DNA of 64,000 nt from Palleronia sp. THAF1 (GTDB taxonomy: Bacteria > Pseudomonadota > Alphaproteobacteria > Rhodobacterales > Rhodobacteraceae). The notes below the pieces were generated by a model. The model made no database searches and was not told the DNA's origin. It saw only the letters and a program-made list of their open reading frames with translations. The translations under genes and the position numbers were made by a program. The stretch is from assembly GCF_009363795.1 (NCBI RefSeq), contig NZ_CP045420.1, forward strand, positions 2,833,001 to 2,897,000, read 5' to 3'. The stretch's first letter is position 1. Each line of letters starts with the position of its first letter. Below, one piece after another: positions 3,488-11,668 of this stretch.

Positions 3488-4534
3488 GTGACGCGCGTCC
3501 TGCACATCCATTTCGGCAAAGAAGGCGGCGCAGAGCGGTTTTTCGTGAACCTTGCCACCGCTTTTGACAAGCGAGGAGTCGAACAGCGGTTCGTCATCCG
3601 CCCCAACCGCAGTTGGGGCGACGCGATTGCCGCGCTCGGCCCGGTGCGTCACAGCAACTTCCAGCGGTTGTCGCCGATGCGCTCCCTCGTGCGCGCCCAT
3701 ATTCGCAAGACCTGCCGTGACTGGCAGCCGGATGCGGTGATGGCCTGGATGCACCGCGCCGCGCAGGCTCTGCCACCGTCGCATGATGGTGTGCGCCTGT
3801 GTCGGCTGGGAGACTACCCCGCAAACCTCAAACATTTTGACAACTGTGATGTCGTGGTCGGCAATGTCCCCGGCATCGCGCAACGGCTGGATGATCTGGG
3901 CTGGAGCGGCGGGCGCACGGTGGTGTCGAATTTTCCCAAGCCGGTGACGCCCCGGCCTGTGTCTCGTGCCGACCACGATACGCCCGAAGATGTGCCGCTC
4001 TTGGTCACCGGCGGGCGATTCGTGCCGCGAAAGGGCATGGACATTGCGATCCGCGCCGCCGCCCGCATTCCCGGCCTGTGGCTGTGGCTGATCGGTGACG
4101 GTCAAGAGCGCGCTGCACTGGAGGCTCTTGCCCGCGAACTTGGCATCGCCGACCGCACCCGTTTCATCGGCTGGGTGGACGAGACGATCCATTACATCGC
4201 CGCCGGAAACCTGTTCCTTCTGCCCTCGCGCCACGAGCCGCTTGGCAATATCCTGTTGGAGGCCTGGCAAGCTGGCGTACCGGCCATCTCGACCCGGTGC
4301 GAGGGGCCATCGTGGTTCATGCGCGACGGTGTCGATGGGCCGATGGTGGATATCGATGACATAGACGCGACCGTGACCGCCCTGCAGGCTCTTCTGGACG
4401 ACCCGGCACGCGCACAGCGCCACGCGGCTTCGGCGACAGAGCGACTGCAGCAGATGTTTACCGAGGACGCCATTGTCGACGAATATATGCGCCTGTTCGC
4501 CATGACACCAAGTGAAGCAAGGGCCCTTCGATGA
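3488..4534 (+). CDS. Glycosyltransferase family 4 (group 1)
   Basis: A 348-residue GT-B fold glycosyltransferase. The N-terminal half opens with a GT4-type glycine-rich segment (HFGKEGGAERF), and the C-terminal half has the family's E-x7-E region in HEPLGNILLEAWQAG, near residues 248-262. The start codon is GTG, three bases after the FkbM stop. The gene ends with an ATGA overlap onto the GT25 gene, so the two are translationally coupled. It probably adds a sugar to lipopolysaccharide or a capsule-like glycan, but donor and acceptor cannot be read from sequence. Confidence 0.85.
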   Translation: MTRVLHIHFGKEGGAERFFVNLATAFDKRGVEQRFVIRPNRSWGDAIAALGPVRHSNFQRLSPMRSLVRAHIRKTCRDWQPDAVMAWMHRAAQALPPSHDGVRLCRLGDYPANLKHFDNCDVVVGNVPGIAQRLDDLGWSGGRTVVSNFPKPVTPRPVSRADHDTPEDVPLLVTGGRFVPRKGMDIAIRAAARIPGLWLWLIGDGQERAALEALARELGIADRTRFIGWVDETIHYIAAGNLFLLPSRHEPLGNILLEAWQAGVPAISTRCEGPSWFMRDGVDGPMVDIDDIDATVTALQALLDDPARAQRHAASATERLQQMFTEDAIVDEYMRLFAMTPSEARALR

Positions 4535-5274
4535 GCTTGGAAGCGTTTCTCATCAACCTTGACGGCTCCGACGCGCGACTGGCCACAGCCGCCAGCCAGT
4601 TGGACAGGATCGGGATGAAGTGGTCTCGAGTGCCTGCGGTGGACGGGCGCGGCAAGCCGACGTCTGATTTCCCGCAATACGATGATGCCGCCTGTCGCCG
4701 CTACATGGGCCGGTCGATGACGGGCGCGGAGATCGCGTGCCACCTTAGCCACGCGCGTGCCGCAGAAACCTTCCTGCACAGCGGGGCCAGCCACGGCCTG
4801 ATCCTGGAAGACGATTTCACCCTGATTGCCGATGGCCCGACGCTGACCACGGTGTGCGAATGGCTGATGGCCGAAAGCGCGCTCGACTGGCAGATCGCGA
4901 ACCTTGGCGCGCACAAGAACAAGATCAGCACAGAGATCGCGTCAGTCGAAGGCCACGCCATCCTGCGCGCGCATTACTTTCCGATGCTCGCCACCGCGAT
5001 CCTGTGGACGCGGCCCGCAGCAAAGACGTTCGTTGCCGATGCCGCGCGCTTGTTCTGTCCTGCGGACAACCAGCTGCGCTACTGGCAGACCCGCACGGAC
5101 GGTGGCCTTTCGATCTGGCCCCCCCTGATCCGCGCGGGGGACCACCCCAGCGATATCGACAGCAAGAGCCGTCGCACCGACAAAGTCGAGCGCACGGCGA
5201 CCTATGGGCTGGCCAAACAAAGACGCCTCTGGACCGACAAGATCATCGCGTTTCGGCACCAGAAGGGCCTTTGA
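4531..5274 (+). CDS. Glycosyltransferase family 25 (LPS-type)
   Basis: A 247-residue family 25 glycosyltransferase, related to the beta-galactosyl transferases that build lipooligosaccharide outer core. Diagnostic segments are the N-terminal FLINLDGSDAR, the GAEIACHLSHARA helix at residues 65-77, and the LEDDF metal-binding motif at 92-96. The start ATG overlaps the upstream GT4 stop (ATGA), indicating coupled translation. It is the last gene of the 1559-5274 glycan cluster. The acceptor is not identifiable. Confidence 0.88.
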   Translation: MSLEAFLINLDGSDARLATAASQLDRIGMKWSRVPAVDGRGKPTSDFPQYDDAACRRYMGRSMTGAEIACHLSHARAAETFLHSGASHGLILEDDFTLIADGPTLTTVCEWLMAESALDWQIANLGAHKNKISTEIASVEGHAILRAHYFPMLATAILWTRPAAKTFVADAARLFCPADNQLRYWQTRTDGGLSIWPPLIRAGDHPSDIDSKSRRTDKVERTATYGLAKQRRLWTDKIIAFRHQKGL

Positions 5275-5372
5275 CCGGAAGGCCTGATAAATACTTCGTC
5301 AGCCGCGATACTTCCGCGCGCGACTGCACTATCCTAATTACCAAATGATCGACTTCCGAAGGACCGAATCGC

Positions 5373-5963
5373 ATGGATAGAAGAGACTTCATTACCACCG
5401 GCCTTGCCGCTTTCGGTGCGGCTTTGGTAGGCGGCCCCGCCGCCTTCGCGCAGGACGCGGCACCGGCGAGCTCTGGCTTGCCGCCACACCTGCAGCCCAA
5501 GTTCGTGCAGCTGCGCTATGCCCTACCCGCGAACGAAGTGCACGTTTTCCCCGATCACTTCCAGCTGTTCTGGACGCTGCCGAACCGTCAGGCGTGGCGC
5601 TACGGCATCCGCGTGGGGCGCGCAGGCCTGTATGAACCCGGACAGTACTTCGTGGGTGCGAAGAAAGAGTGGCCTTCCTGGACGCCGACGCCCGACATGA
5701 TCGCGCGCGAGCCGGAGAAATATAAGCAATACGAAGACGGCATGCCCGGCGGCCCCGGCAACCCCCTGGGCGCGCGTGCGCTGTATCTGTTCCAGGAAGG
5801 CCGCGGCGACACGTTCCTGCGCATCCATGGCACGGCTGACGTGAACACCATCGGCCGCGCGGTTTCGAACGGCTGTGCGGGCCTGACCAACGAGCATGTG
5901 AAACTGCTGTATGAGCAGGTTCCGATGAACACCCGTGTGGTGCTGTATCCCAAGATGGTCTGA
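5373..5963 (+). CDS. L,D-transpeptidase (YkuD domain), Tat-like exported
   Basis: A 196-residue periplasmic L,D-transpeptidase that would cross-link peptidoglycan or attach proteins to it. The N-terminus carries a twin-arginine-like signal (MDRRDFITTGLAAF) ending near AFA-QD at residue 26-27. The YkuD active site is complete, with H152, S166 and C168 in the HGT...SNGC arrangement. The start has an AAGGAC site just upstream. It is separated from the glycan cluster by about 100 bases and is followed by a strong intrinsic terminator, so it is probably a single-gene unit. A second, smaller YkuD protein is encoded at 33100-33591. Confidence 0.92.
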   Translation: MDRRDFITTGLAAFGAALVGGPAAFAQDAAPASSGLPPHLQPKFVQLRYALPANEVHVFPDHFQLFWTLPNRQAWRYGIRVGRAGLYEPGQYFVGAKKEWPSWTPTPDMIAREPEKYKQYEDGMPGGPGNPLGARALYLFQEGRGDTFLRIHGTADVNTIGRAVSNGCAGLTNEHVKLLYEQVPMNTRVVLYPKMV

Positions 5964-5991
5964 ACGACCGTCTCGGTTTCTGATACGCTGA

Positions 5992-6020
5992 AGGCGTCGC
6001 TCGCAGAGCGGCGCCTTTTT
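5992..6020 (+). terminator. Intrinsic terminator after the L,D-transpeptidase gene
   Basis: An 11-bp stem (5992-6002 with 6006-6016, one G-T pair) closes a 3-base loop and runs into five T residues at 6016-6020. It lies 28 bases after the stop at 5963 and before the cydA promoter region. Confidence 0.9.
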
Positions 6021-6122
6021 CATGTGTTAGCGCCCGAACTGCGACACTGCGGCTGTGCAGAGCGGGTGCATTCCGACGCAAAAGCGCTTATTTCCATCCC
6101 GACACCGACGAAAGGTAGGCGA

Positions 6123-7538
6123 ATGGACACGTTTCTTGGATTGGACGCATTGGTGCTGGCCCGGATCCAGTTCGCCTTCACCGTCGCATTCCACTTCATC
6201 TTCCCGGCATTTACCATCGGATTGGCAAGCTTCCTTGCCGTCCTGAACGGCATTTGGCTGAAAACCGGAGAGCGTGTTTACTACCGCCTGTTCAAATACT
6301 GGGTGAAGATCTTCGCCATCTCTTTCGCGATGGGCGTCGTGTCGGGTATCGTGATGTCCTACCAGTTCGGCACCAACTGGTCCGTGTTCTCTGACCGCGC
6401 GGGGCCGGTGATCGGACCGCTGATGGCTTATGAGGTTCTGACCGCCTTCTTCCTGGAGGCCGGGTTTCTTGGCATCATGCTCTTCGGACGCGACAAGGTC
6501 GGCCCCACGCTGCACATGGTTGCCTGTCTGATGGTGGCCGTCGGCACGGCGATTTCTGCCACGTGGATCCTATCGGTCAATTCGTGGATGCACACGCCTG
6601 CGGGCTACGTGATGGGCGAGAACGGCCAGTTCCTGCCCGACGACTGGATGAAGATCATCTTCAACCCGTCCTTCCCCTACCGCCTGCTGCACACCCTGAC
6701 GGCTGCCTATCTGGGCACAGCCTTTGTGGTCGGTGGCGTGGGCGCGTGGCACCTGCTGCGGGGCAAGCGCGACAACATCGCCGTGCGGCGCATGTTCTCG
6801 ATGGCGATGTGGATGGCCGCGATCGTGGCCCCGTTGCAGATCGGCGCGGGCCACCTGCAGGGCATGAACACCTATGAGCATCAGCCGACCAAGGTGCTGG
6901 CGATGGAAGGTCACTTTGAAAGCAGCGAGGACGGTATTCCCCTGATCTTGTTCGGCATCCCGGACCAAGAGGCGCAGGAAATGCGCTACGAGCTTTCGAT
7001 CCCACGCCTTGGCGGTCCGATCCTGGAAAAGGGCCTGAGCGCGTCCATGGACGGGCTTGATACCGTGCCGATCGACGAACAGCCGCCGGTCGCCATCGTG
7101 TTCTACTCGTTCCGCATCATGGTCGGGATCGGCTTCCTGATGGTGGCCGTCGGGTTCTGGTCGCTTTGGGCGCGCTACAAAGGGCGTCTGTATGAAGACA
7201 AGTGGCTGCACCGCGCGGGTGTGCTGATGGCGCCGTCCGGTCTGGTCGCGGTGATCGCGGGCTGGATTACGACAGAGGTGGGGCGCCAGCCCTACACCGT
7301 CTACGGCGTGATGCGCACGTCTGAATCCGTGTCGCCCATCGCCGCCTCTGCCGTCGGTACGTCGCTTCTGATCTTCATCGCCATCTACTTCGCGGTGTTC
7401 GGCGCAGGCATCCTGTACCTGCTGAAACTGATGAGCCGCGCGCCGGACGTCGGTGAGAAAGAAACCGACGACAGCGGCCCGATCCGAACGGGTGGCATCA
7501 CGCCGGGCAGCCTGCCCGCAACGCAGCCTGCGGAATAG
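6123..7538 (+). CDS. cydA: Cytochrome bd-type quinol oxidase subunit I
   Basis: A 471-residue integral membrane subunit of a bd-type terminal oxidase that carries the haems and the quinol site and reduces oxygen to water. The N-terminus (LDALVLARIQFAF, then an early conserved His in AFHFIF) and the C-terminal GRQPYTVYG segment are characteristic. The length near 470 residues, with a short periplasmic Q-loop, fits the cyanide-insensitive CIO-type branch rather than the longer E. coli form. I chose ATG 6123 because AAAGG lies just upstream and the protein then begins with the conserved first helix; the frame is open further upstream to 6024 but that part has no family similarity. It forms an operon with cydB, ten bases downstream. 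I see no clear FNR box upstream. Confidence 0.96.
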   Translation: MDTFLGLDALVLARIQFAFTVAFHFIFPAFTIGLASFLAVLNGIWLKTGERVYYRLFKYWVKIFAISFAMGVVSGIVMSYQFGTNWSVFSDRAGPVIGPLMAYEVLTAFFLEAGFLGIMLFGRDKVGPTLHMVACLMVAVGTAISATWILSVNSWMHTPAGYVMGENGQFLPDDWMKIIFNPSFPYRLLHTLTAAYLGTAFVVGGVGAWHLLRGKRDNIAVRRMFSMAMWMAAIVAPLQIGAGHLQGMNTYEHQPTKVLAMEGHFESSEDGIPLILFGIPDQEAQEMRYELSIPRLGGPILEKGLSASMDGLDTVPIDEQPPVAIVFYSFRIMVGIGFLMVAVGFWSLWARYKGRLYEDKWLHRAGVLMAPSGLVAVIAGWITTEVGRQPYTVYGVMRTSESVSPIAASAVGTSLLIFIAIYFAVFGAGILYLLKLMSRAPDVGEKETDDSGPIRTGGITPGSLPATQPAE

Positions 7539-7547
7539 GATCGAGAT

Positions 7548-8579
7548 ATGGACATCGGACTGGGCATCAGCATCGACCTGACCATCGCGTGGGCCATCCT
7601 TCTGGCGTTTGCCGTCTACGTCTACGTCATCCTCGACGGGTTCGATCTGGGCATCGGCATCCTGTACCCCGCCTTCCCCGCGAAGGAAGACCGCGACCTG
7701 ATGATGAACACGGTCGCACCCGTCTGGGACGGCAACGAGACGTGGCTGGTGCTGGGCGGCGGCGGACTATTTGCCGCTTTTCCCATGGCCTACGCGATCA
7801 TTATGCCTGCGCTTTATCCGCCGATCATCGCGATGCTTCTGGCGCTTGTGTTCCGTGGGGTGGCGTTCGAGTTTCGCTGGAAGGCAGCCTCGGATTTCTC
7901 CCGTCGATTCTGGGACTGGGCGTTCATCGGCGGCTCGACCGTTGCTGCGCTCAGCCAAGGGATCATTCTGGGCGCTTTGCTTCAGGGGATAGAGGTCGAC
8001 GGCCGCGCCTATGGCGGCGGCTGGCTGGACTGGCTGACGCCGTTCTCGGTCACCTGCGGCGTTGCGGTGATCTTCGGCTACGGTCTTCTGGGCGCGTGCT
8101 GGCTGAACTGGCGCACGACCGGCTACATGCGCGAGCAGTCCCGATATATCGCGCGAATGCTGGGTTTCGTCACCGTCGCCTTCATCGGCATCGTGTCCCT
8201 GTGGACGCCGTTTCTGGAGCAGGAGTATTTCCAGCGCTGGTTCGCATGGCCGTCGATCCTGCAAGTTCTGCCGATCCCCGCGCTCGTCATCGGCTTTGTG
8301 TTCATGCTGGGCCGAGAGTTGTATAACGAGGCGAACGACTGGATGCCCTTCGTGCTGACGCTGGGTCTGTTCGGGCTGTGCTTCCTTGGCCTTGGCGTGT
8401 GCATGTGGCCTTACATCATCCCCACCGAGGTCACGATGTTCGAGGCTGCGAGCCCGTTCAAATCGCAGCTTTTCATGTTCGTGGGCGCAATCATCCTGAT
8501 ACCGATCATCTTGGCCTACACCATCTATGCTTACTGGGTGTTCCGCGGGAAGCTGGAGCACGGTGAAGGCTACCACTGA
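7548..8579 (+). CDS. cydB: Cytochrome bd-type quinol oxidase subunit II
   Basis: A 343-residue membrane protein that pairs with CydA in the bd oxidase. The family signature DGFDLGIGIL appears in the first helix (near residues 26-35), followed by the GNETWLVLGGGG region. Eight or nine hydrophobic segments are visible, matching CydB. The gene starts nine bases after the cydA stop, and its TGA stop shares its last base with the ATG of a short third gene (8579), so cydA, cydB and the short gene should be one transcript. Confidence 0.97.
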   Translation: MDIGLGISIDLTIAWAILLAFAVYVYVILDGFDLGIGILYPAFPAKEDRDLMMNTVAPVWDGNETWLVLGGGGLFAAFPMAYAIIMPALYPPIIAMLLALVFRGVAFEFRWKAASDFSRRFWDWAFIGGSTVAALSQGIILGALLQGIEVDGRAYGGGWLDWLTPFSVTCGVAVIFGYGLLGACWLNWRTTGYMREQSRYIARMLGFVTVAFIGIVSLWTPFLEQEYFQRWFAWPSILQVLPIPALVIGFVFMLGRELYNEANDWMPFVLTLGLFGLCFLGLGVCMWPYIIPTEVTMFEAASPFKSQLFMFVGAIILIPIILAYTIYAYWVFRGKLEHGEGYH

Positions 8580-8674
8580 TGCTGCGCCGGGTAGCTTGGT
8601 TCGTAGCGATCTGGGTGCTGAGCGTCACGGCGTTGGGCATCGTCGCCTACGGCATCCGGTCCATGATCTTGTAG
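8579..8674 (+). CDS. Short single-helix CydX-like subunit (DUF2474 type), 31 residues
   Basis: A 31-residue protein starting MLRRVAWFVAIWVLS and ending in IRSMIL. It has one predicted membrane helix with two arginines in front, a tryptophan-rich start and a short basic end. This matches the DUF2474 family, small proteins encoded just after cydB in CIO-type operons and thought to be the counterpart of CydX. Its ATG shares one base with the cydB TGA stop, which indicates coupled translation. Similarity is judged by eye from pattern, length and position only. Confidence 0.8.
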   Translation: MLRRVAWFVAIWVLSVTALGIVAYGIRSMIL

Positions 8675-8706
8675 ACAAGGCACGTTGCGAGCCTATCTGG
8701 CCGCGG

Positions 8707-9825
8707 ATGAAGCATTTTCTGATCCGCCTCGCCGCACTGGCCCTGTTGGCCGCCCCTCTTCACGCGCAGGAAGACACGCCTGCCACAAGCCAGCCCGCCA
8801 TCGGCGACGCGACAGAGGAGGCCGCCTTGAGTGGCACGCTGACCGTCGCCACCCGAGAGGCCCCGCCCTTCGCCTTTCGCGGCCCCGACAACGAATGGAC
8901 CGGCATCGCCATCGAGATGTGGGCCGCGCTCGCCGACGAGCTGGACCTTGATTACACTTTGGAAGAGGCGTCGCTGGCCGACATGATCGAAGGCACCACC
9001 GATGGCCGCTTCGACGCCGCCGTCGCTGCGCTGACGATCACGCCCGAACGCGAGGGGCGGCTTGATTTTTCGTTCCCCTACTATTCAACAGGCCTTGGTA
9101 TCGCGGTCGATCCCGGCGCGTCGGGCGGCTGGCTGCGCGTCGCGGCAAACTTCTTTTCGTGGCAATTTCTGACCGTGCTCGCCAGCCTATCCGCTGTCTT
9201 GTTGATCGCAGGCGCGGCCATGTGGTTTTTCGAGCGGGGAAAAAACGAAGAATTCCCCAAGGCCCCGGCAAAGGGCTTGGGAGACGGCTTCTGGTGGGCC
9301 GCGGTAACAATGACCACCGTGGGCTACGGCGACAAAAGCCCACGCACACTGGGCGGACGTATCGTCGGTTTCATCTGGATGTTCACCGCGATGATCATTG
9401 TCGCCAGCTTCACTGCCGCCATTGCTGCGTCGCTGACGGTCGGTCAGCTCGGCGGGCGCGTCGGCGGCCTTCAAGATCTGGACAGCGTGCGCGTGGGCGT
9501 GGTCGCGGACAGCGCGGGCCAGACAGAGTTGACCGAGCGGCGCATCGACAGTCAGGGGTTCGAGACCGTCAACGCAGGCTTCAACGCTCTTCTGGCGGGT
9601 GATATCGACGCCTTCGTTCACGACCGCCCGCTGATGCTGTTCACGGCCGATCAAGACTATCAGGGACAGGTTCGCATCCTTGACGATAACGTCGGCCGTC
9701 AGGACTACGGCGTCGCTCTGCCAGAGGGCGATGACCTACGTGAGCCGCTGAACCGCGCGTTGCTATCCTATGTGCGCAGCCCCGAGTGGGGTGCCCTTAC
9801 GCGGCGCTATTTGGGGACGAACTGA
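8707..9825 (+). CDS. Predicted GluR0-type ligand-gated potassium channel
   Basis: A 372-residue protein with the layout of a bacterial ionotropic glutamate receptor: signal peptide (residues 1-20, ending LHAQ), first half of a solute-binding domain (about 40-140), a membrane helix (about 150-177), a pore loop with TVGYGD at residues 204-209, a second helix (about 215-243) with SFTAAIAASLT, then the second binding lobe to the end. TVGYGD is the potassium selectivity filter and SFTAAIAASLT resembles the SYTANLAAF motif of glutamate receptors. It should bind an amino acid in the periplasm and gate potassium flow. I chose ATG 8707 because it starts a clean signal peptide. The 3' end overlaps the convergent DMT gene by 29 bases. 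Ligand unknown. Confidence 0.85.
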   Translation: MKHFLIRLAALALLAAPLHAQEDTPATSQPAIGDATEEAALSGTLTVATREAPPFAFRGPDNEWTGIAIEMWAALADELDLDYTLEEASLADMIEGTTDGRFDAAVAALTITPEREGRLDFSFPYYSTGLGIAVDPGASGGWLRVAANFFSWQFLTVLASLSAVLLIAGAAMWFFERGKNEEFPKAPAKGLGDGFWWAAVTMTTVGYGDKSPRTLGGRIVGFIWMFTAMIIVASFTAAIAASLTVGQLGGRVGGLQDLDSVRVGVVADSAGQTELTERRIDSQGFETVNAGFNALLAGDIDAFVHDRPLMLFTADQDYQGQVRILDDNVGRQDYGVALPEGDDLREPLNRALLSYVRSPEWGALTRRYLGTN

Positions 9826-10696
9826 CGTCGCGCAATGCACGGCGGCGCTGATCCCACAGGTAGATCGCCAGCGTCACAACCACGATGGCCCCGCCGATCA
9901 AGCCGCGGGGGCCAACGGCCTCTCCGACGCCCCACCACACGACGATGGGACCAAGTACCGTTTCCAGCAGCAACACAAGGCTGACATTGGCGGCAACGGT
10001 GAAGCGGGAGGCAAGGTTGAAGCAGGTGAAGGACACCGGAAGGATGCAGATGCCCGTGACCCAGATCGCGGGCAGATAGCCGTCTGTCTGCGTCAATGGT
10101 CCGGCCAGCGACCAGCCGGTCGATCCCGCGATCAGCGCGCCGAGGCCGACGGTCAGCAGCACCGGCAGATCGGGTCGTGCGCGGTAAATGGTGAAGGTGC
10201 CCGACAGTGACACCGCGACGACCAGCCCGCAAAGTGCGCCCAGAACGGCGTTCGACCCGCCACCGCCCTCTCCCCAGACCGACAGACCGATCCCGCCAAG
10301 GACGACGACAGCAGCGATCAGGGTTCTGGGCTTGATGCGGTCGCCCAGAAAGGCCGCGCCCAACAGCGCGGCGATCAGTGGCGTGCAGGCGACGGCGAAT
10401 AGCACGACGGACACCGGAGCGATCGCGATGCCAGTGGCGAACAACCCGGCATTGGCGGCGCTCAACAGGATCGTCGTAACGCCGCCCAACGTCATCAGCG
10501 CCGCCAGATCGCGACGCTTGGTCCGCGAAACGATGATCCACGCCAGCGCAAGCACACAGGATTGAAGCAGCCCCCGCCATGCCACCATCTGCGCGGCGTC
10601 CAAACCGGAAATCCGCATCAGCAGCGTGTCGGGCACGATCACGAGCGCGCCGATCAGCGCGATGGTGATGCCCTTGATGTCGTTGTCCTGTCTCAT
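9797..10696 (-). CDS. DMT family transporter (EamA domains)
   Basis: A 299-residue inner-membrane protein of the drug/metabolite transporter superfamily with about ten hydrophobic helices arranged as two EamA repeats. The second repeat has the usual features: a short loop followed by an LGDRIKPRTLIAA segment at the end of the first repeat and a conserved proline-rich region. Such proteins export amino acids, nucleosides or drugs; the substrate cannot be inferred here. It is convergent with and overlaps the channel gene by 29 bases, and it lies downstream of and in the same direction as the peroxiredoxin gene, separated by a terminator. Confidence 0.88.
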   Translation of the reverse strand: MRQDNDIKGITIALIGALVIVPDTLLMRISGLDAAQMVAWRGLLQSCVLALAWIIVSRTKRRDLAALMTLGGVTTILLSAANAGLFATGIAIAPVSVVLFAVACTPLIAALLGAAFLGDRIKPRTLIAAVVVLGGIGLSVWGEGGGGSNAVLGALCGLVVAVSLSGTFTIYRARPDLPVLLTVGLGALIAGSTGWSLAGPLTQTDGYLPAIWVTGICILPVSFTCFNLASRFTVAANVSLVLLLETVLGPIVVWWGVGEAVGPRGLIGGAIVVVTLAIYLWDQRRRALRDVSSSPNSAA

Positions 10697-10726
10697 GCAT
10701 CGGCGCTATCCCATCGGAGGCGCACG

Positions 10727-10759
10727 AAAAAGGCCGGATCGCGCGGTGGCGACCCGGCC
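10727..10759 (-). terminator. Intrinsic terminator after the peroxiredoxin gene
   Basis: On the minus strand an 11-bp stem (10759-10749 with 10742-10732, one G-U pair) closes a 6-base loop and is followed by five T residues (A run at 10727-10731). It lies 40 bases after the peroxiredoxin stop and just before the DMT start, so it separates the two units. Confidence 0.88.
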
Positions 10760-10798
10760 CTTCGGGGAAGGTATTTGAAGAACTGTGAAGCCGAAGCG

Positions 10799-11452
10799 TC
10801 AGCTCGGCTGCTTCGTCGTGCGGATGTAGGGCAGCTTCTGGTCGAAATCGCCGAACTTGTCTCGCGCCTCGTCGTCAGAGACACCACCGGTGATGATGAC
10901 GTCGCCGCCTTGGCTCCAACCCGCGGGCGTCGCAACCTTGTGCTTCGCCGTCAGTTGGATCGAGTCCAGCGCGCGCAGGATCTCATCGAAGTTGCGGCCC
11001 GTGGTCATCGGGTAGGTCATCGACAGCTTCACCTTCTTGTCCGGCCCGATGATGAACACCGTCCGAACTGTCGCGTTGTCGGCAGGCGTGCGGCCGTCCG
11101 TGCGCTCTTCGGAAGCGGGCAGCATATCGTAGAGCTTGGCCACTTTCATCTCGGGGTCGCCGATCATGGGGTAAGAGACCTCATTGCCGGTGAAGGTCGC
11201 GATGTCGGACTTCCATTTGTGGTGGTCTTCCACCGGATCAACAGAAACGCCGATGATCTTGGCGTTCCGCTTGGAGAATTCCTCGGCCATGCCCGCCATC
11301 ATGCCCAGTTCTGTCGTGCAAACGGGCGTGAAGTCCTTGGGATGGCTGAACAGGATCGCGTAGCCGTCGCCGATCCAGTCGTGAAAGCTGATCTCGCCTT
11401 CGGTGGAATCGGCGGTGAAGTCGGGGGCGGTGTCGTTGAGGCGCAGGGCCAT
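10799..11452 (-). CDS. 1-Cys peroxiredoxin (Prx6 type)
   Basis: A 217-residue cytoplasmic thiol peroxidase that would reduce hydrogen peroxide and alkyl hydroperoxides. The peroxidatic cysteine is C45 in PVCTTE (residues 43-48), preceded by the DFTP motif. The long C-terminal extension with the TYPMTTGRNFDEILR segment is the Prx6 dimerisation region. I chose ATG 11452 because AAGGAGA sits six bases upstream; the open frame to 11494 has no family match. A terminator follows. It diverges from the dioxygenase/esterase pair at 11669-13183, both being plausible oxidative or electrophile stress functions. Confidence 0.94.
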   Translation of the reverse strand: MALRLNDTAPDFTADSTEGEISFHDWIGDGYAILFSHPKDFTPVCTTELGMMAGMAEEFSKRNAKIIGVSVDPVEDHHKWKSDIATFTGNEVSYPMIGDPEMKVAKLYDMLPASEERTDGRTPADNATVRTVFIIGPDKKVKLSMTYPMTTGRNFDEILRALDSIQLTAKHKVATPAGWSQGGDVIITGGVSDDEARDKFGDFDQKLPYIRTTKQPS

Positions 11453-11668
11453 GGGACTCTCCTTCGGTTGTCTCTTGAGAGGACAAGTAATCACGAACGC
11501 ATGGGTTCAAAGGCACCAGAACAGAAAACAGGACGGCGTTCGCCCTAATCCGCGCCACGTGGGACGCGCGTTTGCAATCGTGCGCGGACGCACAGATTTG
11601 GTTTGTGGGCGGGCGTTTCGTGGATGGCTCGCACGCTCTATCTAGCGGCTCAACATAAGGAGGATGCC

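Follow-up and report, generated by a model that had tools for sequence, protein, structure and literature searches.

Gene organization and domain architecture

The window analyzed here, a 64,000-nt stretch of the Palleronia sp. THAF1 genome, harbors on its + strand a gene for a predicted GluR0-type ionotropic glutamate receptor (8707..9825), identified by its open reading frame (ATG at 8707, stop codon ending at 9825, 372 aa) together with Pfam, phmmer and structural matches. The description of the genome as roseobacter-like, made in the initial annotation, fits, since the genome falls in the same genus as Palleronia abyssalis, which is labelled Roseobacteraceae. The protein begins with a signal-peptide-like segment (MKHFLIRLAALALLAAPLHAQ, residues 1-21, 8707..8769), read by eye and corresponding to a low-confidence helix at residues 2-15 of the structure model. 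It is followed, always on the + strand, by the S1 half of the ligand-binding domain (residues 44-135, 8836..9111) with Arg115 (codon 9049-9051), the M1 helix (about residues 152-176, 9160..9234, placed by Pfam and the model), the pore helix and K+ filter (residues 191-212, 9277..9342, with TVGYGD at residues 204-209, 9316-9333), the M3 helix (about residues 215-247, 9349..9447, placed by the GluA1 alignment and the model) with SFTAAIAASLT at residues 234-244, and the S2 half (residues 252-370, 9460..9816) with Asp306 (codon 9622-9624). S1 starts at about residue 44 and the chain ends two residues past S2, leaving neither an N-terminal domain nor an M4 helix, and the predicted topology comprises two transmembrane segments and a P loop (model helices 152-176, 187-203, and 215-245).

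By its domains, the product is a type-3 solute-binding protein part that a pore divides into S1 and S2. The strongest Pfam match, SBP_bac_3 (4.5e-25), is spread over residues 45-370, and Lig_chan (6.1e-17, residues 162-260), Ion_trans_2 (5.6e-15, residues 164-243), Lig_chan-Glu_bd (2.8e-9), and Ion_trans (1.4e-7) also passed their curated cut-offs; YhfZ_C (0.11) fell under its own. These include SBP_bac_3 and Ion_trans_2, the pair by which the initial annotation had proposed to recognize the architecture. The best phmmer match among PDB sequences was 2pyy, the Nostoc GluR0 core, aligned over residues 44-135 and again over 252-360, on either side of the pore. In the PDB sequence search GluA1 aligned over residues 93-279, including GRIVG...S-TA--AA-LTV, and its alignment pairs SFTAAIAASLT in M3 with SYTANLAAF of AMPA receptors. 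The earlier reading of a split binding domain and a pore in one protein, with a TVGYGD filter at residues 204-209 of the translated frame and a segment resembling SYTANLAAF, is therefore borne out, Pfam, phmmer and fold matching of the model agreeing that the domain is split.

Pore, anchor residues, and structure model

When the pore fragment (residues 140-250) was searched alone, the best matches were voltage-gated K+ channels (Kv1.2, E 5.6e-12), with which it has FWWA-V-MTTVGYGD in common, and AMPA receptors came lower in the list, the first at 1.9e-8. The alignment of the pore to potassium channels, on which the initial annotation hinged, is thus found, and K+ selectivity of the channel can be predicted. 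Gating by amino acids is likewise a prediction, drawn from the binding domain: Arg115 (in ALTITPER) and Asp306 (in AFVHD) each aligned with the same residue in 2pyy and in glutamine-binding protein, and are expected to contact the alpha-carboxylate and the alpha-amino group, respectively. Ger et al. (2010; PMC2950845) describe glutamate as being held at its carboxylate by an Arg of S1 and at its amino group by an Asp of S2. Both residues were invariant in the 12 rows of alignment A2, which were picked as close relatives and include one row (L162) with an altered filter.

Among the six genes found in the genus, residues 191-212 were invariant (22/22) and M3 was nearly so (31/35), S1 (42/92) and S2 (47/123) being looser. 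In the five genus relatives, differences from the window gene lay mostly at third codon positions (0.47-0.54, compared with 0.20-0.27 and 0.14-0.22 at first and second positions), far beyond what chance would give. Because this third-position bias recurred in all five comparisons and the pore and M3 were kept, the gene looks functional.

The AlphaFold2 model, built from six sequences, was of modest quality (mean pLDDT 67.7, pTM 0.43), with filter residues 205-207 and residues 309-320 below pLDDT 50. The best 50 Foldseek matches listed were AMPA receptor chains (best E 2.7e-18 over 365 columns, LBD-TMD structures), and whole-chain superpositions among them were loose (TM 0.42-0.46, rmsd 7.7-16.8). 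With VIA-align, amino-acid-binding proteins and ionotropic glutamate receptor (iGluR) cores were intermixed (Z 20.8-23.0): LAO-binding protein ranked first (Z 23.0), and GluR0 with L-glutamate (1ii5) reached Z 22.3 (216 aligned residues, rmsd 4.2) and 2pyy Z 21.9. Structure prediction, another check proposed at the outset, thus returned a modest model whose binding domain matches the GluR0 cores 1ii5 and 2pyy. The modeled fold supports a GluR0-like architecture; since non-channel binding proteins match the clamshell equally well, it does not name the ligand.

Genomic neighborhood

Upstream of the channel gene and on the same + strand lie the genes for CydA, cytochrome bd oxidase subunit I (6123..7538; PF01654, 8.7e-164), CydB, subunit II (7548..8579; Pfam), and a CydX-like DUF2474 protein of 31 aa (8579..8674; PF10617, 35.2 bits vs. 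a cut-off of 26.6), referred to below as CydX. The start of the DUF2474 gene overlaps the cydB stop, and its end lies 32 nt before the channel gene. A convergent gene for an EamA/DMT transporter (9797..10696, - strand) overlaps the end of the channel gene by 29 nt, the whole order being LDT (YkuD), CydA, CydB, and DUF2474 upstream, then EamA and peroxiredoxin downstream.

The window-type channel was carried by six of the 14 genus genomes (66-100% identical), in all six between cydX and the next conserved gene. The window cydAB was present in 13 of the 14 (CydB 69-100% identical), and in seven of these 13 the channel was missing from the locus. LDT upstream and peroxiredoxin downstream were found in all 12 genomes compared with the window, carriers or not, and an EamA match in 10 of them (not in L126 and L156). 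The channel gene starts 32-70 nt after the cydX stop in five carriers; in the sixth (L161) the distance is 457 nt, with an extra small ORF in between. Around close relatives outside the genus, 15 stretches (6.5-15 kb each, three without the K+ filter and two from one genome) gave no match to CydA or CydB. Among 86 rows of the family and contig searches, the only ones with CydA or CydB near the receptor were the window, L037, and L031, all of the same genus.

A scan gave no terminator-like site in the gap from cydX to the channel gene, so that co-transcription with cydABX is plausible. It also gave no sigma-70-like site in 5900-9950, with a promoter model that fits alphaproteobacteria poorly. 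Since the flanking order is conserved with or without the channel, linkage alone is no evidence of joint function at the cyd site. In the tree of 13 genomes (CydA, CydB, peroxiredoxin, and LDT) the carrier state needs three changes, with G296 apart from the other five carriers, and the channel tree groups all six genus carriers (SH-aLRT 100), which fits either an ancestral channel gene that was later lost in some lineages or a single gain followed by two losses. Having been lost or gained several times, the channel gene is dispensable in the genus.

Elsewhere in the window genome we observed a second bd-oxidase-like pair (G000:C1:1687985-1688938, L157; CydB 42% identical, with a CydA match adjoining), found likewise in G295, G300, and G302. 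The only other Ion_trans_2 match found in this genome (G000:C1:159095-159235) lay in an open frame of 121 aa.

Distribution and phylogeny of the relatives

In the family, 77 of 295 genomes had a match at E <= 1e-20, in 80 places. A G-Y-G-D filter was present in 12 of these (the window, L037, L038, L039, L040, L041, L044, L045, L049, L055, L060, and L076) and absent from 68, of which 61 carried GGFEER-P or GSFEER-P. At the phylum level, 28 of 398 genomes matched profile A2 at E <= 1e-40, 11 of them with the filter and 10 with the filter and both anchors, a count that includes the window genome (G000) as well as a G242 copy (L165) identical in sequence to L039, and that leans to K+-filter receptors because A2 consists mostly of K+-filter rows. 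The Balneolota relatives L032 and L035 also possess the filter and both anchors. Receptors combining filter and anchors are uncommon yet widespread in what was searched. Among more distant K+-filter rows, L040 lacks the Arg and L174 the Asp. The set of relatives contains one cyanobacterial row (L163), without the K+ filter.

Some relatives required separate treatment. L036 (E 8e-6) was excluded from alignments and trees. The long open frames of L038 and L039 (674 and 578 aa), which seem to extend the protein at its N-terminus, were read as chance, the channel in L038 having its own internal start and signal-like segment. A relative of L172 and L192 was matched in two separate 235-aa frames (L186 and L193, G516), and this gene may be broken or mis-assembled. 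The genome matching Palleronia abyssalis (G295) carries a second, highly divergent receptor-like gene (L131), without the K+ filter, 28-31% identical and on the longest branch of the relatives tree.

From 116 distinct rows, a first tree was computed on 60, namely every fifth of the 69 non-K+ family rows bearing anchors (14 rows) and the others, minus the truncated L186. For the second tree (56 rows) L186 and the long branches L131, L040, L174, and L183 were left out, and residues 200-214 and everything before residue 40 were cut from the alignment. The 29 K+-filter rows among the 56 did not form one clade: constraining them to do so lowered the log-likelihood by 93.6 (AU p = 4.4e-5), the group having been set by motif and the 60-row tree viewed before the AU test. 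As this is a quick tree with many weak forks, we make no strong claim of non-monophyly.

The window lineage is a 17-row set (SH-aLRT 96) that includes three filter-less rows, L162 (5875-6996, Rhizobium tumorigenes), L172, and L192 (two genes of one genome of the same class), which show altered filters (TQASTGHRG, TQAGAAQN) and keep both anchors. They possibly represent a natural switch from K+ to another pore. K+-filter rows L044, L045, and L175 are nested among filter-less rows (26-row set, SH-aLRT 99). A separate K+-filter group with TTIGYGD, here called type B, comprises eight rows (L041, L049, L055, L060, L076, L128, L129, and L130; SH-aLRT 99). It has lost Asp306 in all eight and Arg115 in six and shows a gap where M3 ends; these may be K+ channels with another ligand or none. 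Type B occurs in three genus members, and the two types were found together in none of the 14 genus genomes at E <= 1e-20. Around the eight type B loci no neighbor was shared by more than three, and those shared by three were antisense frames of the receptor gene.

Discussion

The gene product is, in our judgment with a probability of about 0.8, a GluR0-type subunit that contributes to an inverted K+ channel gated by amino acids. The domain order, the filter, the anchor residues, the fold matches, and the conservation are observed, and topology, tetramer, gating, and K+ selectivity are proposed by analogy with GluR0 and AMPA receptors. Like the window protein, Synechocystis GluR0 (slr1257) and the Nostoc punctiforme core have a split type-3 binding domain with the Arg and Asp anchors, and GluR0 has two transmembrane segments and a K+-channel filter; in structural alignments restricted to the binding cores, the window domain is 24% (1ii5) and 31% (2pyy) identical to them. 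The window protein differs in being alphaproteobacterial. AMPA receptors (GluA1-4) share the S1-M1-P-M3-S2 order, an aligned GRIVG...SYTANLAAFLTV region, and a loose whole-chain fold match, but they add an N-terminal domain and M4 (PMC6385376) and lack the K+ filter.

Within the prokaryotic iGluRs, the window protein is best read, from architecture, filter and anchors, as a member of 'Group 1' of Ger et al. (2010; PMC2950845), with which it shares domain order, K+ filter, S1 Arg, and S2 Asp. The family iGluRs that we call 'Group 2'-like, a label assigned by pore type to the non-K+ rows, resemble it in architecture (27-35% identity, both anchors in most rows) and differ in lacking the K+ filter. 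Ger et al. placed 12 Group 1 members apart from Group 2 among 22 sequences in total; against this clean split, the K+-filter rows of our 56-row sample are not one clade. That catalog also qualifies the initial statement that few bacterial iGluRs have been studied, as K+-filter receptors had been compiled earlier, and GluR0 is the bacterial example most discussed in the papers cited here. Searches of the open-access literature, which do not imply absence from print, found no paper joining GluR0 and cydAB, none on prokaryotic or bacterial ionotropic glutamate receptors under those names, and none linking bacterial receptors of this kind to Rhodobacter and a selectivity filter; for Palleronia and potassium channels the only match concerned allicin resistance of Pseudomonas. 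The channel gene adds to a known family and is by itself not surprising.

The position of the gene next to a bd oxidase operon had been put forward as suggestive. The position itself holds, cydA, cydB, and the DUF2474 gene lying directly upstream, whereas the functional hint loses ground, with seven of 13 genus cydAB loci devoid of the channel and no cydAB in the 15 stretches from outside the genus. One could propose that the channel functions within the operon, sharing a transcript with cydABX and offsetting or sensing the membrane potential generated by the oxidase, e.g., under low oxygen or oxidative stress, as the shared strand, the 32-nt distance from the DUF2474 gene free of terminator-like sites, and the cyd position in six of six genus carriers, five of them with gaps of 32-70 nt, would suggest. 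We consider this unlikely in view of the channel-free cydAB loci inside the genus, of the relatives outside it with no cydAB in the 15 stretches around them, of the interposed 457 nt and small ORF in L161, and of LDT and peroxiredoxin (12/12) and EamA (10/12) being kept whether or not the channel is present. Expression from the bd oxidase operon with a coupling of extracellular amino acids to respiration appears more doubtful still; if true, a ligand-gated K+ conductance would short-circuit or reset the membrane potential during bd oxidase activity, and a glutamate receptor would have a respiration-linked role in a bacterium. The link to the bd oxidase is probably incidental.

Alternatively, the protein might be an ungated K+ channel or an orphan one, its binding domain being kept for assembly or sensing a signal other than an amino acid. 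There appear to be receptors of this kind among the relatives, given the loss of Asp306 (8/8) and Arg115 (6/8) in type B, and GluR0 transport required the soluble domains and dimer contacts (PMC13099474). The window protein, however, retains Arg115 and Asp306, as do all 12 rows of A2, and we regard this explanation as improbable for it. Finally, relatives bear the GenBank name 'transporter substrate-binding domain-containing protein' (most of the annotated plasmid relatives listed), and SBP_bac_3 is the top Pfam match, as would be expected of an ABC-transporter solute-binding protein with a membrane anchor. This is very hard to reconcile with a domain interrupted by a pore with a K+ filter, with the lack of any permease or ATPase family in the protein, and with the lack of ABC transporter families in the eight neighbors scanned (3488 to 11494).

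For the amino-acid-gated K+ channel, the following mechanism can be envisaged. The signal peptide would direct the N-terminus to the periplasm, where S1 and S2 would form a two-lobed clamshell; between them, M1, the re-entrant loop, and M3 would build an inverted K+ channel pore with the TVGYGD filter on the cytoplasmic side, four subunits assembling into the channel. Arg115 would hold the carboxylate of an L-amino acid and Asp306 the amino group, and closing of the clamshell would pull M3 open, letting K+ move down its electrochemical gradient. K+ flows until the membrane potential nears the K+ equilibrium, and the flow through this channel would shift the potential in that direction and adjust cell K+ and volume.

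Synechocystis GluR0 offers the closest guide to a physiological use. No physiological role had been reported for it before 2026, according to the authors of PMC13099474, who describe K+ uptake in Escherichia coli, with the N- and C-terminal parts outside and some fusion results not significant. There, a gluR0 mutant showed an altered cell-volume response to KCl, shrinking faster after KCl upshock in microfluidic tests, with apparent volume unchanged at 1-10 minutes in a longer assay and liquid growth also unchanged (PMC13099474). By analogy, our best guess for the Palleronia channel is a rapid response to ionic or osmotic change. The neighbors of type A relatives (10 proteins scanned) revealed no common theme. 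Genes for MscS-type mechanosensitive channels lie near two channel relatives (L198:1338-4808; L162 near 11298) and would fit an osmotic role, two cases being too few to use.

The window gene belongs to a K+-filter lineage, found here in Pseudomonadota and Balneolota, in which the residues that a working amino-acid-gated K+ channel should have are retained, and the set of receptors assembled around it could serve to examine transitions of glutamate receptors between K+-selective pores and other types.
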